Assembly (NCBI GenBank): GCA_017513195.1
Contig: JAFXGM010000005.1
Span: forward strand, 46,704 to 110,703
Direction of reading: 5' to 3'
DNA from: Clostridia bacterium
GTDB taxonomy: Bacteria > Bacillota > Clostridia > Oscillospirales > Acutalibacteraceae
Length of the DNA: 64,000 nt
The translations under genes and the position numbers were made by a program. The notes under the pieces were generated by a model. It was not told where the DNA came from and did not search any database. It was given only the letters and a program-made list of their open reading frames with translations. This document shows, piece by piece, positions 40,805 through 62,063 of the stretch (positions are counted from its first letter, which is position 1; each line of letters starts with the position of its first letter).

Positions 40805-41617
40805 TTACAATGTTTCACAATATTTGTCTTTAAAATCCAAAACAACCTTTTTTAAGGTGTAATCAATTTTCCTGTCGCAAAAATCAGAAATATGTTTTGG
40901 GATTTCCTTATAATATGCTTCAGCAATTCCTCCGGCTATGCACGCTTCTGTATCAGCATCGCCACCAAGAGATACCGCATTTCGAATCGCACTTTCGTAA
41001 TCAGTGGAGTCTAAAAAAGCGATGATTGCAGGAGGCACGCTATAAGACGCTCTACTATCAAAAACATAATTATTTCTTATTTCGTCAAGATTTTTTGAAA
41101 GATTATAGTGGAATTTGTTTTCTAAAAAACTACGAATTTCATCCTTGCTTTTTCTATTCCGAGCGAAAAAAACTGCCGTTGCAACCGCTTGCGCTGCTTT
41201 TATTGCTTCGCTGTTTTTATGCGTAAAAAAACAATTTGCTTTTGCTTGAAGAAGCACTTGATCAATAGTATCATACGCATAACCAATCGGCACAGAACGC
41301 ATCGCTGCACCATTAGCATAGCTTCGGTTTACTTTATATGTATCAGACCTTGCCCATTCCGAAAACATATTGCCAAATCCCGCATGCGGATAGAATGAAT
41401 AATATTGGCGAAACTGTCCTGCATATTCCAAACCGCGTTTTCGAATATTCCAACGGGTAATAGTATCAGGATTATTTAATATTGATTTGCAAACAGCAAC
41501 TGTTAAAACAGTATCATCGGTAAATGTGCTGTCCTTTTGGAATTCAAAATCATAATCCTTTGTACAATGAGTTTCATAGTACGAACCTATTATGTCGCCA
41601 TATATTGCACCGAACAT
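40805..41617 (-). CDS. ADP-ribosylglycohydrolase family protein
   Basis: A 270-residue DraG-like protein. Mg2+ ligands are visible in STFTDDTVLT (near residue 32) and SLGGDADTEACIAGGIAEAY (near 225), the two signature motifs. Members remove ADP-ribose from proteins, RNA/DNA or metabolites. ATG 41617 follows GAGGCG. Its promoter is one end of hairpin-array repeat A, and the same promoter block drives the unknown cassette at 43249-44229. It leads an operon with Dabb, GH110-like and two small genes. No ADP-ribosyltransferase partner is in view. Confidence 0.93.
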   Translation of the reverse strand: MFGAIYGDIIGSYYETHCTKDYDFEFQKDSTFTDDTVLTVAVCKSILNNPDTITRWNIRKRGLEYAGQFRQYYSFYPHAGFGNMFSEWARSDTYKVNRSYANGAAMRSVPIGYAYDTIDQVLLQAKANCFFTHKNSEAIKAAQAVATAVFFARNRKSKDEIRSFLENKFHYNLSKNLDEIRNNYVFDSRASYSVPPAIIAFLDSTDYESAIRNAVSLGGDADTEACIAGGIAEAYYKEIPKHISDFCDRKIDYTLKKVVLDFKDKYCETL

Positions 41618-41638: not shown

Positions 41639-41667
41639 ATTATAGCATAAAATCGGTGGAGGGGCAA
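41639..41667 (-). promoter_or_regulatory. Promoter at the left end of hairpin array A
   Basis: Minus strand TTGCCC (41662-41667), 17-bp spacer, TGC then TATAAT (41639-41644), an extended -10. The same block recurs at 44263-44291. Confidence 0.82.
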
Positions 41668-41673
41668 GGTTTT

Positions 41674-41882
41674 AGTGATATTCTGTGCTCCGCACAGAGT
41701 GATATTTTCACTTCGTGAAAGTGATATTGAAACCTACGGTTTCAGTGATATTATATTCGCCTTTAAAACTCGCAAAGCGAATATCACTTGAACGAAGTTC
41801 AAATATAACTGCGAAGCAATATAACTCGCCGCCGGCGAATATAACTGAAAAAACTCTTGTTCTTTCGAACAAGAGTTTTTTC
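41674..41882. repeat. Hairpin array A
   Basis: Four AGTGATATT linkers (41674, 41698, 41720, 41744) each precede a short hairpin (CTGTGC/GCACAG, TTCAC/GTGAA, GAAACC/GGTTTC). After a centre with ATTCGC/GCGAAT come four inverted linkers AATATCACT or AATATAACT (41780, 41802, 41818, 41838) with hairpins TGAAC/GTTCA, TGC/GCA and CGCCG/CGGCG. It ends in a 15-bp terminator stem (AAAAAACTCTTGTTC / GAACAAGAGTTTTTT, 41848-41882) that would end the cassette transcript. The gene-free stretch 41618-41948 is essentially this element plus its promoter. Confidence 0.9.
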
Positions 41883-41948
41883 TGGGTAGTTTGAACTTAA
41901 TGACACGTATAAAATGTGCCTGAAAGCCAAAGGTTTTCTACAATTTTT

Positions 41949-43196
41949 TTACATACCCGTAACATCTATGCGCGGTACGAAAGCTCCGTCCGGTGCTGAG
42001 GAACGGTCTATGCCAAGTTGCTTATCCATAATTGCCTGCGCACTTTTCATAAATTCGGCAGGGTTATCAATATTAAAACTTGCCGCATTTATCTTAGTAT
42101 CCCTTTCTTCATAATCAAAATGGTGCACAAGAGTTCTTATTATATCATCTGCCATTGCTGCATATTTTTCGGAGATTTTTCCTTTTCTTTTGAGCTTTCT
42201 AACCTCTGACAAAAGACCATAATAATCCTCTTCTTTTGAGGTTTCCATCAACCTGTTTATTTGCAAAACTCTTGCATCGGGGTGATTTTTAAAATCACCA
42301 TTTTTTAAATATTTATCGGCTTTTCCTTCAAGTTTTCTCTTTTCTGAATTTGTAAGTAAATCCGTATCGGTTTGTCCGAATAAATACTCAGCAATTTCAA
42401 AAATCGCATCAGGGTCGCCCAATTTTGCTGCTTCCTCCAATAATTTCCTATCTATTGGTGAAGAATTTTTTGATTCTTGATAAAGCTTTCTACCTTGGCT
42501 TAATCGTTCGTTCTTTTCCTTTTCTTCAAGATATTTAATTGCGTTAGGATTACCAAGTTTCGCTGATTCTATAACAAGTTGTATATCTCCATCTATACCG
42601 CGTCTGAACATATCTTCAGTTTGGGCAAGTTTTTCCGCCTCAATGGCTTGCATGCGCTTTTCGCTATTTAATCTTTGTTGTTTCAAATCAAAAGTTCTCT
42701 TAAGCCCCTCCAGCTCTTTTTTAGCCTTCTTTTTCTTGTCATTGTTGATACTTATATCTGAAAAAAGAAAATATATTCCGCTTGGTATAATAAAAATACC
42801 TGCAGAAAAAACACCCGTAAGAAGCATGGTACCCAGCATATAAAAAAACTTTTCCCTTTGAAAAATACTAACAATTGCCGCCTCAAGCATTATCACCAAT
42901 ACGCCTAATCCTATAACCTTCCAAAAATCAGATTTATCTAAAGCAAAATTAGCCATATCGATTTTAAACAAATTCAAAAAGTAAGTTCTCATCGGTTCGT
43001 ATACTATCGCGAACACAATAAATCCTAAATACACAAGAACTGTCAAAATTCCTATAAGAATCCTTTTATTATCCTTTTTGCTATCGGCAACTATCTTCTC
43101 CTGCTCTTTTACCTTAGAGTCGGTATATTTAACCTCTTTCTCTAATTCCTTTATTGTTGCAAGATATTTATCAGGATTTAATACTCTTCCATTCAT
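41949..43196 (-). CDS. Unknown membrane protein with coiled coils and Sel1-like repeats
   Basis: A 415-residue protein. An N-terminal coiled coil (about 8-45) is followed by two pairs of membrane helices (about 48-70 and 92-150), then a second long coiled coil rich in Lys/Glu. A helical region follows with ESAKLGNPNAIKYLEEKEKN and EEAAKLGDPDAIFEIAEYLF, which look like Sel1/TPR-type repeats. It ends RIDVTGM. ATG 43196 lies 9 nt after AAGGAG. The gene after it upstream has the same layout and a similar tail (GIDSRGM), so the two probably form a complex. Function unknown; the pair is bounded by hairpin arrays A and B. Confidence 0.75.
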   Translation of the reverse strand: MNGRVLNPDKYLATIKELEKEVKYTDSKVKEQEKIVADSKKDNKRILIGILTVLVYLGFIVFAIVYEPMRTYFLNLFKIDMANFALDKSDFWKVIGLGVLVIMLEAAIVSIFQREKFFYMLGTMLLTGVFSAGIFIIPSGIYFLFSDISINNDKKKKAKKELEGLKRTFDLKQQRLNSEKRMQAIEAEKLAQTEDMFRRGIDGDIQLVIESAKLGNPNAIKYLEEKEKNERLSQGRKLYQESKNSSPIDRKLLEEAAKLGDPDAIFEIAEYLFGQTDTDLLTNSEKRKLEGKADKYLKNGDFKNHPDARVLQINRLMETSKEEDYYGLLSEVRKLKRKGKISEKYAAMADDIIRTLVHHFDYEERDTKINAASFNIDNPAEFMKSAQAIMDKQLGIDRSSAPDGAFVPRIDVTGM

Positions 43197-43248
43197 AGAC
43201 AAATTCTCCTTAAAATAAAATTTTCTATTATTTCAAAAACGCTTTTAA

Positions 43249-44229
43249 TTACATTCCTCTTGAATCAATTCCTTTTCCGCCCATCATTCCACTCGAAACT
43301 GCGTGCCACGCTTCATCTTCAGTCAACTCAGCCGAGGAATTGTTGCCACCAAAATTCAAACCACCGGAGTAATACTCCATCTCATACTTAGAGGAACTAT
43401 AATACTGCCCTTTTGCCAACGCGTTTTTCGTGATTTCCTCTATTCTTCTTATGCAATAATCGCGCTGTTCTTTTGGAGTCAACCAAACTTTTTCTTCACA
43501 CTTCAAAACAATATATTCATATTTTTCCGCTTCCCGATAACCAATATCATATAAAAATTCAACCCAGGAATATAACTTTTGATACATTGTATCACTTTTG
43601 GCACCGTTTTTTAAAGTTACCAGCCATCCCTCCAAATTATTGATGATATCTTTCATAGGAACTTCATTAGCAAGTTGTTTATACTCAATAATTTTTTTAA
43701 GTTCCTGTTGTTTCTCTTTCTGCTTCTCTTCTATTTTTTCCTTTTCTTTCCGCAATTCATAAATTTCTCTCAATTGTTTCCTAGCCATTATACGAGGGAA
43801 TAGCGTAAATATTATATTGATATTTAAAAGCTCCCAAGTAAAAAATCCTATTACAAAAAATAAAACGTTTTTCCAAAGTAATGTAACAATATCCGTAAAA
43901 TTCAAAACAAAAAAATCAGGAATCCAAGCAAACGGATATATATTATATCTTGAAAGACAATAAACAATGAGTAGAGATAAAATATATAAAAGAATATAAT
44001 GTAGAATATTGTACTTAACTGACTTACTATATCTTTTCCATTCTTTTGTTTTTTGCAAATTGATGATTTCCTGTTTCTTACGCCCAATTTCCAGTTGAAA
44101 AGTATTAATTTGTTCATTGAGTTTTCCTTCTGCATTTTCAACCTTTTCAGCAGTTATTTCTCCACCAAATCGACTTTTTTTAAATGTGCGATAATTATCA
44201 AGAAACGAACTCATTTCTAAAAATTCCAC
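43249..44229 (-). CDS. Unknown coiled-coil membrane protein, partner of the next gene
   Basis: A 326-residue protein. It has an N-terminal coiled coil (about 20-65), two membrane segments (about 75-95, 115-145), a very charged coiled coil (about 150-190, many Lys/Glu), a helical domain with EFLYDIGYREAEKYEYIVLK, and a Gly/Ser-rich end finishing GGKGIDSRGM. Start GTG 44229 lies 8 nt after GGTGGT; ATG 44214 is the alternative. The base composition is more AT-rich than that of the neighbours. No family is recognised. It is first in a two-gene operon driven by the promoter at the edge of array B. Confidence 0.7.
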   Translation of the reverse strand: MEFLEMSSFLDNYRTFKKSRFGGEITAEKVENAEGKLNEQINTFQLEIGRKKQEIINLQKTKEWKRYSKSVKYNILHYILLYILSLLIVYCLSRYNIYPFAWIPDFFVLNFTDIVTLLWKNVLFFVIGFFTWELLNINIIFTLFPRIMARKQLREIYELRKEKEKIEEKQKEKQQELKKIIEYKQLANEVPMKDIINNLEGWLVTLKNGAKSDTMYQKLYSWVEFLYDIGYREAEKYEYIVLKCEEKVWLTPKEQRDYCIRRIEEITKNALAKGQYYSSSKYEMEYYSGGLNFGGNNSSAELTEDEAWHAVSSGMMGGKGIDSRGM

Positions 44230-44262
44230 GAATAAACACCACCAAAATCAACTTTTGAACAC

Positions 44263-44291
44263 ATTATAGCATAAAAGTGGCGGAGAGGCAA
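44263..44291 (-). promoter_or_regulatory. Promoter at the left end of hairpin array B
   Basis: Minus strand TTGCCT (44286-44291), 17-bp spacer, TGC then TATAAT (44263-44268), nearly identical to the promoter block beside array A. Confidence 0.82.
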
Positions 44292-44297
44292 GGTGTT

Positions 44298-44513
44298 AGT
44301 GATATTGAAACCTGCGGTTTCAGTGATATTCAATAAGGTGCGTAGCACCGTCATTCTTCGTAGCAAGATTTATCTTGCGGAGAAATATTCGCCTCTTAAA
44401 CTCGCGAAGCGAATATCACTTGGAGTTTAGTCCAAATATCACTGCGAAGCAATATAACTCGCCGCCGGCGAATATAACTAAAAAACTCTTGTTCTTTCGA
44501 ACAAGAGTTTTTT
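44298..44513. repeat. Hairpin array B
   Basis: Same plan as array A. AGTGATATT linkers at 44298 and 44322 are followed by GAAACC/GGTTTC, then a longer diverged centre with GGTGC/GCACC, GCAAGAT/ATCTTGC and ATTCGC/GCGAAT. Inverted linkers AATATCACT (44412, 44435) and AATATAACT (44451, 44471) follow, with hairpins TTGGA/TCCAA, TGC/GCA and CGCCG/CGGCG. It ends in the same 15-bp terminator stem (44480-44513), which serves the tRNA operon. The last 65 bp are almost identical to array A. Confidence 0.9.
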
Positions 44514-44586
44514 GGAGGCACCACCCAGAATCGAACTGGGGATAAAAGCTTTGCAGGCTTCTGCCTTACCGCTTGGCCATGGTGCC
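44513..44586 (-). tRNA. tRNA-Cys (GCA)
   Basis: Minus strand acceptor GGCACCA pairs with TGGTGCC; anticodon GCA in CCTGCAAAG; T-arm CCCAGTTCGATTCTGGG; CCA encoded. Last gene of the five-tRNA cluster, followed at once by the array B terminator. Confidence 0.95.
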
Positions 44587-61103: not shown

Positions 61104-61477
61104 TGCGAGTTGGTTACGCGGTTGCGCATAATTTTTTATGTGAGGAAAGTCCGAGCCCCACAGGGCAGAATAACAGCTAACGGCTGCCGAGGGTGACCTT
61201 AGGGAAAGTGCAACAGAGATATACCGCCGTAATGGCTTGGGGCAACCCTTTAACCTTTGCTTTGCAAAGTACCTATTACGGTAAGGGTGGAAAGGCGAGG
61301 TAAGAGCTCACCTGCCGTGTGGAGACACAACGGCACTGTAAACCCTATTTGGAGCAACGCTGACTGTGGCTACACATTGGCCCGATGTGCCACGAAAAGC
61401 GGCTTGAGCGTACAGGCGACTGTACGTCGAGATAGATGACCGCGCACGACAGAACTCGGCTTATAGACCAACTCGCA
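61104..61477 (+). ncRNA. rnpB: RNase P RNA, type A
   Basis: The RNA subunit of RNase P. Conserved parts: P4/P5 region GAGGAAAGTCCGAGC, CAGGGCAGAATAACAGCTAA, GGTGACCTTAGGGAAAGTGC (CRII/III area), GGTGGAAAGGCGAGGTAAGAG, and ACAGAACTCGGCTTATAGACC. The ends GCGAGTTGGT and ACCAACTCGC pair as P1. It has its own promoter and terminator. Tandem loops typical of type A RNA appear present; B-type cannot be fully excluded without folding. Confidence 0.93.
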
Positions 61478-61505
61478 CCAAACTTTATGTTTGGTGCAGT
61501 TTTAT
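61475..61505 (+). terminator. Terminator of rnpB
   Basis: Stem GCACCAAAC / GTTTGGTGC with TTTAT loop, then AGTTTTATT. Confidence 0.88.
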
Positions 61506-61674
61506 TCGCCTTGCGGCGAGTGATATTGCTTCGCAGTGTTATTATGCTGTACATAGTGATATTCGGCTCCGCCGAGTTATAAAAGGGCGAATAAAATATC
61601 ACTGCAACCAAAAGGTTGCAATATCACTTTTGCAAAGCAAAAATATCACTCTTTGCGCAGCAAAGAATAACACT
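61506..61674. repeat. Hairpin array C, beside the four-helix-bundle gene
   Basis: Same plan as arrays A and B. Hairpins CGCC/GGCG, GC/GC, ATG/CAT and CGGC/GCCG are separated by AGTGATATT (61519, 61555) and AGTGTTATT (61535). After a centre, linkers AATATCACT (61595, 61620, 61642) and AATAACACT (61666) separate GCAACC/GGTTGC, TTTGC/GCAAA and CTTTGC/GCAAAG. Hairpin sequences differ from those in A and B, only linkers are shared. It ends about 24 bp before the four-helix-bundle ATG. Confidence 0.9.
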
Positions 61675-61697
61675 CATATAAAAACGAGGTAATGTTT

Positions 61698-62063
61698 ATG
61701 GCAGATAGTGTTTTAAGAGATAAGTCAAAGGAATCTGCAAAAAGTGTTGTTTTTCTTTGTCGTGAGATGAAATTAAACAAAAAAGAGTCCGTGCTTGCAA
61801 ATCAACTTTTACGTTCTGCCACATCTATTGGCGCAAACATACATGAGGCGCAGTACGCACAAGGTCCAAAAGATTTTATTTCTAAACTTGAAATTGCACA
61901 AAAAGAATGTTATGAAACTGAGTATTGGTTAGAACTCTTATTTGAAACTGATTGTATTGACGAAAAAGTATATAAACCATTACAAAGCGACTGTGGCGCT
62001 ATTCGCAGAATGTTAATATCTTCCCTTAAAACCATAAAGGCAAAAAATGATAATAGAGAATAA
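61698..62063 (+). CDS. Four-helix bundle protein (23S rRNA intervening-sequence/S23 family)
   Basis: A 121-residue helical protein: VLRDKSKESAKSVVFLCREM, NQLLRSATSIGANIHEAQYA, GPKDFISKLEIAQKECYETE, then YWLELLFETDCID and a basic end. The RSATSIGANIxEA motif defines this family (related to the avd proteins of diversity-generating retroelements and to proteins in 23S intervening sequences). They bind nucleic acids weakly and lack known catalysis. ATG 61698 (MADSVLRDKS) lies 8 nt after GAGG; ATG 61692 is too close to it. Its leader is hairpin array C. A terminator follows. Confidence 0.9.
   Translation: MADSVLRDKSKESAKSVVFLCREMKLNKKESVLANQLLRSATSIGANIHEAQYAQGPKDFISKLEIAQKECYETEYWLELLFETDCIDEKVYKPLQSDCGAIRRMLISSLKTIKAKNDNRE

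Follow-up and report, generated by a model that had tools for sequence, protein, structure and literature searches.

The window analysed here is a 64,000-nt stretch of a Clostridia bacterium (Oscillospirales; Acutalibacteraceae; contig JAFXGM010000005.1, positions 46,704 to 110,703 of the forward strand), taken from a draft assembly of 1.88 Mb in 47 contigs. It contains three hairpin arrays, A, B and C, and, beside array C, the gene of a four-helix bundle protein of the PF05635 family (Table 1). The initial annotation had described the arrays as 9-nt linkers alternating with hairpins. All three proved to be real, array C lying outside the interval 41674..44513 to which they had been assigned. 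Our results revealed that all three arrays represent a single oriented element of about 175 bp, in which four linkers and three hairpins are followed by a core and then by their mirror image. Read in one orientation, the layout is L1-H1-L2-H2-L3-H3-L4-core-H4-L5-H5-L6-H6-L7-H7-L8, where L1-L4 are AGTKATATT and L5-L8 its reverse complement; array C is oriented opposite to A and B. A conserved strand, (N)TATTCGCC, lies at the centre and is called core strand X hereafter. The linkers were conserved as AGTKATATT, as had been claimed, but not as one fixed 9-mer, the variants AGTTTTATT, AGTGTTATT and AATAGAACT being found as well. The reported flip of linker orientation at the array centre was seen in A, B and C. 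Arrays of clustered regularly interspaced short palindromic repeats (CRISPR) have one repeat orientation and unrelated spacers; here the orientation flips and the spacers are the hairpins, which agrees with the earlier view that the arrays are neither CRISPR-like nor a tandem repeat (cas genes were not searched for). The claim that the arrays share no hairpins had to be given up: H6 (GCGAAGC) and H7 (CGCCGCCGGCG) are identical in A and B, H3 is nearly so, and the slots are homologous between copies.

In the window, AGTGATATT occurred 14 times, against 0.65 expected from shuffles, and every copy lay within arrays A, B and C. Extraction of the units from the whole genome, as the initial annotation had proposed, gave 39 linker-gap-linker matches, corresponding to about 10 elements, against 0 for a reversed-pattern control. 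A likeness to Gut-1 RNA, a long-range pairing of the core and the protein gene beside array C had all escaped that annotation. For comparison between copies, 107 distinct elements were parsed from the window genome, its relatives and named contigs, the partial ones including decayed copies and contig ends; 62 of them had exactly 4+4 linkers. Among the matches listed in the scan of named genomes, chance matches outside Clostridia were present.

Hairpins in the same slot were related between the 62 full copies: the H3 arm was GAAACC in 23, the H6 loop GAA in 33 and the H7 arm CGCC in 57. The arrays therefore form one family, in which the stems drift. Of 1768 stem cells in 59 full copies, 97.4% were paired; these cells contained 370 two-sided changes (shuffled mean 106) and only 7 one-sided ones. 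In array B, the left half is degenerate and H5 has an inner mismatch. The covariation score was 0.557 compared with 0.131 after shuffling, and dropped to 0.111 or less when the partner was slid by 1-3 columns. The compensatory changes on which the initial annotation had made its idea depend are thus present, and it is pairing rather than stem sequence that is kept. Two-sided change nearly without one-sided intermediates is, to our knowledge, unusual for RNA stems. Furthermore, a functional RNA strand tolerates G-U pairs and not A-C. The stem pairs of 105 oriented elements comprised 2353 Watson-Crick, 15 G-T, 16 A-C and 26 other mismatches, whereas 26 tRNAs from the window and the loci (acceptor and T stems only, with the end trimmed to maximise pairing) gave 288 Watson-Crick, 22 G-U, 0 A-C and 2 others. 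On the AATATCACT strand, C-G loop closure was found in 488 of 549 hairpins and a G..A loop in 347, and the GCGAAGC of H6 is a known, very stable DNA mini-hairpin. Because of the paired substitutions and, unlike in tRNAs, the lack of a G-U excess, the sequence comparison favours stems that act as DNA hairpins rather than as RNA. Pairing of linker with linker into a long ladder was also considered and rejected; the commonest left linker (AGTGATATT) and the commonest outer right linker (AATATAACT) mismatch at one position.

Each half of the element resembled Gut-1 RNA (Rfam RF01706), the two halves on opposite strands. The window had been missed at the Rfam gathering score because its matches lie just under the 50-bit cut-off, and a permissive E-value search found RF01706; scores were 44.5-47.4 bits in arrays A and B and 58.9 bits at best in locus L151, with others in the order exceeding 90 bits. 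In a survey with at most 15 candidates scored per genome, 126 of the 295 genomes sampled from the order had Gut-1 matches at E<=0.001 (103 above the gathering cut-off); 14 control genomes gave one match (E. coli), below that cut-off. When 30 Gut-1 loci were parsed, 22 of them held 25 linker clusters, 22 of these clusters being two-oriented, and eight loci had no cluster. The linkers there were mostly GTGAAAT, with an X of the type TAAATCCACCC or GAAATAAATCC. Three hairpins split by conserved linkers, linkers of the GTGA(A/T)AT type and C-G closed TNC loops are common to Gut-1 and to each half of our element. The Rfam model differs in being 77 nt long, with three hairpins on one strand; our unit adds a second inverted copy and a core strand pairing with the outer arm, as well as a terminator-type hairpin and, at some copies, a linked protein gene. 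These matches and their frequency in the order would suit Gut-1 as Rfam has it, namely a structured noncoding RNA from one strand, the second half being a second RNA. So would Weinberg 2010, the only open-access source in which we found RF01706, where Gut-1 is listed as certainly RNA, not cis-regulatory and from human gut only (PMC2864571). However, we regard this explanation as quite improbable, as the matches fall on both strands, G-U pairs are no more frequent than A-C pairs and the arrays lie beyond terminator-type hairpins. A G-U excess was seen on neither strand, which argues against a strand-specific RNA, and together with the strand symmetry of the element speaks for DNA.

A further pairing involves the core. 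X is complementary to X', which is made up of the H7 3' arm and the start of L8, and the match was 9/9 in 50 of the 62 copies (shuffled mean 20.5, maximum 32). The first base of X has three states and was in step with its partner in 60 of the 62. Over all X-X' cells, 98.1% were paired, with 26 two-sided changes against 7.2 in shuffles. X' is also able to pair with the short H7 5' arm, giving two competing folds. We tried 37 arrays that have other linkers and lie next to PF05635 genes (see below); 5 could not be parsed. Not counting linker letters, X-X' matches of 8 nt or more were present in 23 of the 32 scored, compared with 6.4% of 956 different-linker control pairs and 53% of 36 same-linker pairs.

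A hairpin of at least 8 bp was flush with the linker on the L8 side in 63 of 69 cases and on the L1 side in none of 69, against 101 of 5220 random positions. By eye, many of these L8-side hairpins are the terminators of protein, tRNA, 5S, transfer-messenger RNA (tmRNA) or RNase P genes. Similarity stops 2 bases or less from L1 and L8 in many pairs of copies from different subfamilies; in other pairs, and within subfamilies, it runs into the flanks. At 19 of 106 loci the element lies within an inverted repeat of 10 nt or more, mostly A-rich on its left side and with its outer arm 105-175 nt left of L1; flank-swapped controls gave this in 6 of 1054 cases. At one of the 19, L055, the arms are tmRNA sequence and not a terminator. 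Five more loci (L116, L120, L220, L242 and L259) had arms further out, at distances where they arise more readily by chance (52 of 1054 swapped controls at any distance). The position flush with terminators, together with the outward promoter-like sites near A and B, could indicate a transcriptional device, such as an extended terminator or insulator that separates a terminator from the promoter that follows. We consider such a role very improbable: the linkers do not form U-tracts, the element is symmetric in its two directions, X-X' would have no role, and copy number and sites vary between species. As side observations, L220 carries an IS3-type transposase frame (1233-2087, named by eye) between its 18-nt outer arm and the array, and at L226, L067, L231, L232, L245 and L247, where the copy adjoins a tRNA gene or tRNA-like sequence, L1 is bordered by a fragment resembling a T arm (GGTTCGAATCC or similar).

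One site allowed a comparison of relatives. Between the convergent HIT and AzlD genes, genome G010 has an intact empty terminator, GCACCGA-TTAAA-TCGGTGC. In G000 the arms of this terminator stand 336 nt apart, with the element between them and H8 toward HIT. G018 shares these arms, but there H8 lies toward AzlD and further genes follow on the HIT side; its locus is split between contigs C41 and C37 and was matched through the array sequence present at the two ends. Gain or loss between relatives, which the initial annotation had proposed to look for, is thus seen as a filled, an inverted and an empty version, and filled and empty versions of one site are what insertion sequences and miniature inverted-repeat transposable elements (MITEs) leave, here at one site only. 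In G008 the HIT/AzlD spacer has no array of the AGTKATATT family; instead it carries another type of long palindromic repeat, GTCATTCTGAG...GAAGAATCTT (L264). The RNase P locus was used as a marker for presence only, with linker counts over whole loci; 29 other such loci had no AGTKATATT array and at most one strict linker each within the stretches covered, some of them short. Spread by viruses was considered and set aside; among the 80 viral-contig matches listed, only L314 and L316 had more than one match.

Table 1. Arrays, hairpins, promoter-like sites and the PF05635 gene in the window
Feature	Position	Strand	Remarks
Array A, complete 4+4 element	41674..41846	+	Left half matches Gut-1 on +, right half on -; cmscan RF01706 47.4 and 44.5 bits
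Core strand X of array A	41753..41761	+	ATATTCGCC
X' of array A	41834..41842	+	GGCGAATAT; H7 3' arm and start of L8; complementary to X
H8 of array A	41847..41882	.	Terminator-type hairpin flush with L8
Promoter-like TTGCCC-N17-TATAAT	41639..41667	-	Points from array A toward gene 40805-41617; judged by eye
Array B	44298..44479	+	Right half intact, left half degenerate at 44331-44384; cmscan RF01706 47.4 bits (44408-44480, -)
H8 of array B	44480..44513	.	Between array B and tRNA-Cys gene (44516-44586, -)
Promoter-like TTGCCT-N17-TATAAT	44263..44291	-	By-eye assignment; directed away from array B
Array C, complete 4+4 element	61498..61674	-	Between RNase P RNA and PF05635 gene
H8 of array C	61475..61497	+	Hairpin at 3' end of RNase P RNA gene (RF00010, 61106-61479)
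Four-helix bundle protein gene (PF05635 / TIGR02436, Avd-like fold)	61692..62063	+	Array C lies directly upstream of it

Two genes between arrays A and B (41949-43202 and 43249-44229, minus strand) had no Pfam or NCBIfam match. The product of the gene beside array C matched PF05635 (1.6e-26) and TIGR02436 (8.2e-31) and was the sole PF05635 match detected in the assembly; the matches to this family obtained here carry the labels 'four helix bundle' or 'S23', with no function name attached. Its predicted model (mean predicted local distance difference test, pLDDT, 91.3) retrieved structure 2rld (E 2.2e-08, 50% identity) and 2gsc in a fold search, and more weakly Avd (4dwl, E 0.094, template modelling (TM) scores 0.72/0.82) and the Avd chains of complexes from diversity-generating retroelements (DGRs). 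PF05635 has been said to resemble Avd (PMC10053308). When the nearest genes of 106 elements were clustered, PF05635 formed the largest cluster (5 of 106), each member on the L1 side and transcribed away from the array; the next largest had four members in mixed position. In a phage-labelled human faecal contig, unverified (L514, MT835815.1), a PF05635 gene 74% identical to that of the window was seen, and by eye a tRNA, a terminator, an AGTKATATT array and the PF05635 gene lie in a row.

Relatives' PF05635 genes had the same array plan with other linkers, among them ATGATGT, AATGATG, GTGATGT, AATGAAG, GTGAAGT, ATGAAAT, ATGATAT, AGCTAAA and GCGATAT. The frame was open in 93 of 95 PF05635 loci examined, and tRNA genes were present in 18 of 38 scanned (38 of the 47 hand-labelled). 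By a strict array score, which asks for at least 5 exact 7-mers in inverted order, 34 of 84 regions upstream of PF05635 genes passed. Of the controls, 1 of 360 windows (mostly coding) and 0 of 252 shuffles did so; the one window that passed was array C, which had come along with the RNase P locus. When linker labels were placed on a tree of 91 PF05635 proteins, they needed 21 changes compared with 45.8 for shuffled labels, and none of 200 shuffles was as low. Several one-linker clades mix host families, and the AGTKATATT label needs three changes. Linker type thus tracks the protein tree rather than the host family. At the genome level, AGTKATATT matches occurred in 31 of 60 genomes searched, counts to which a gene's own array adds; a gene of the AGTKATATT type was found in G000, G024, G025, G039, G052, G054, G055, G058 and G059, each with such matches. 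GTGATGT pairs were found in 20 of 60 genomes, mostly as single, by eye non-hairpin, matches; hairpin arrays with several matches were seen in G002, G013, G016, G033, G051 and G059, and a gene of that type was fetched in G002, G033 and G051. The ATGATAT count was highest in G033, which has such a gene, and many matches were also present in G039 and G059, where none was fetched. G000 holds a second array family with ATGATAT linkers (C41, 256-373). Simple repeats (TTTTTAG, TAGTAAT, GGTGAAAGTGGAAAG and TTAGTGA) were seen at the array-less PF05635 genes L416, L439, L516 and L518. In six plasmid records from other groups the PF05635 gene is flanked by short repeats that are not clear hairpin arrays, and in three of these records (L515, L519 and L520) it lies between presumed defence genes, in or between genes of type I restriction, DUF1156/Swt1 and DISARM drmD with MmeI.

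We have high confidence that array and gene form one unit, and moderate confidence that the PF05635 protein acts on the array. Co-inheritance alone, with REP-like (repetitive extragenic palindromic) or MITE-like repeats spread by another factor and the four-helix bundle gene as cargo, would account for gene-less arrays outnumbering gene-linked ones (PF05635 being next to 5 of 106), for array and gene being seen apart at L116 and L437, for array-rich genomes in which no matching PF05635 gene was among those fetched, and for the tree, which linkage alone explains. Against this, the same plan recurs with many linkers beside PF05635 genes, with X-X' in most, and no other gene family is as frequent on the same side, and we find the cargo explanation rather unlikely.

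Taken together, we think that A, B and C are probably copies of a mobile DNA palindrome, present at dispersed sites, in which two inverted Gut-1 units flank X; it resembles REPINs (REP doublets forming hairpins) and would have an Avd-like PF05635 protein as its partner. The element would work as DNA hairpins or a cruciform and not mainly as RNA. An array with its PF05635 gene may be the complete form and gene-less arrays the dispersed non-autonomous form, comparable to RAYTs (REP-associated tyrosine transposases) and REPINs. We infer that the Avd-like protein binds linkers and hairpin shape in extruded DNA and promotes copying, and we propose that linkers and pairing are kept and stem letters drift because of this mode of binding. 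Replication slippage that perfects palindromes may contribute. New copies would insert at intrinsic terminators, in many cases those of stable RNA genes.

Several observations weigh against this reading. The genomes compared are drafts, many of them metagenome bins. Movement is suggested by one site comparison, where no target-site duplication beyond about two bases was found and a precise loss in G010 may have occurred instead of an insertion. For the core, X-X' showed 6 pair types against 5.7 in shuffles, which is no excess, and three pairs are invariant; an 8-nt X-X' was absent in 9 of the 32 scored gene-linked arrays. Of the 84 PF05635 loci, 50 failed the strict array test, some having variable linkers and some simple repeats only. 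Linker labels on the tree were set by hand, 44 of them as 'none', and the tree result speaks for a long-lived unit without thereby proving recognition, as physical linkage alone predicts the same. G008 and G018 are rich in arrays with no AGTKATATT-type gene among those fetched (5 of 7 and 5 of 6 genes, respectively), and G014, 83% complete, had no PF05635 match. Unrelated four-helix bundles partly outrank Avd by E-value, with lower TM scores, and we know of no enzyme activity of such a bundle.

Another rival explanation is movement by an enzyme in trans, either a Y1 transposase of the IS200/RAYT type or a reverse transcriptase. In DGRs, Avd works with a reverse transcriptase. TnpA of IS200/IS605 is described as recognising single-stranded DNA hairpins (PMC6006769). 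However, Y1_Tnp had no match in array-bearing G001, G017, G039, G047, G055 and G059, and RVT_1 none in array-bearing G008, G018, G024, G025, G039, G047, G054, G055 and G059, absence being uncertain in these drafts; neither enzyme is therefore supported as a requirement, and movement by either seems highly unlikely. In G000, the one weak Y1_Tnp match is on contig C12, with no linked Y1 (HUH) transposase at the arrays, and the one RVT_1 match is on C15, not beside an array, so that the DGR pairing of a reverse transcriptase with an Avd-like protein was not seen.

The palindromic element with its PF05635 partner can be compared with known systems. REPINs are dispersed intergenic inverted hairpin doublets, with hairpins predicted in single-stranded DNA or mRNA and a linked protein gene (PMC3116915). 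Our arrays are likewise dispersed, inverted and intergenic, with a linked protein gene. However, they keep the linkers and vary the hairpin letters, have 4+4 linkers instead of a doublet, and their partner is a four-helix bundle of the Avd and intervening sequence protein (IVP) fold and not an HUH nuclease. At the DGR target, stem pairing is needed rather than stem sequence, the loop matters and 5'-GRNA loops occur (PMC3240598). The arrays share with it DNA hairpins in which pairing ranks above letters, and the Avd fold is similar to the window protein; they differ in being multi-hairpin with linkers and in the lack of a detected reverse transcriptase in the nine genomes above. The intervening sequences of 23S rRNA that go with IVP are insertions in helix loops. 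They share the protein family PF05635 with the arrays, which differ in lying at terminators in spacers and in being multi-hairpin with conserved linkers. In PMC10910872, the 23S rRNA IVP is named in a figure legend on CRISPR adaptation modules, and the section of that paper on non-CRISPR arrays does not name it. A search of the open-access literature by title found nothing linking PF05635 to hairpin arrays.

The related arrays before PF05635 genes point to an undescribed element made of a protein and a hairpin array. More tentatively, and we hold this as a possibility rather than as an expectation, PF05635 proteins could be the specificity factors of widespread bacterial hairpin-array elements. 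A clade-specific linker word (AGTKATATT, GTGAAAT, ATGATGT, GTGATGT, AATGAAG, AGCTAAA, ATGATAT and more) would be read on extruded hairpins, X-X' would close the complex, and arrays would be copied or maintained at terminators without a known transposase. The clade-following linker word makes PF05635 function testable with short DNAs and small proteins. If true, this would give the PF05635 family a role, recast the Rfam 'RNA' Gut-1 as a DNA element and add a REPIN-like system with no HUH nuclease found; via Avd, it may also hint at why retroelement target sites use DNA hairpins of free stem sequence.

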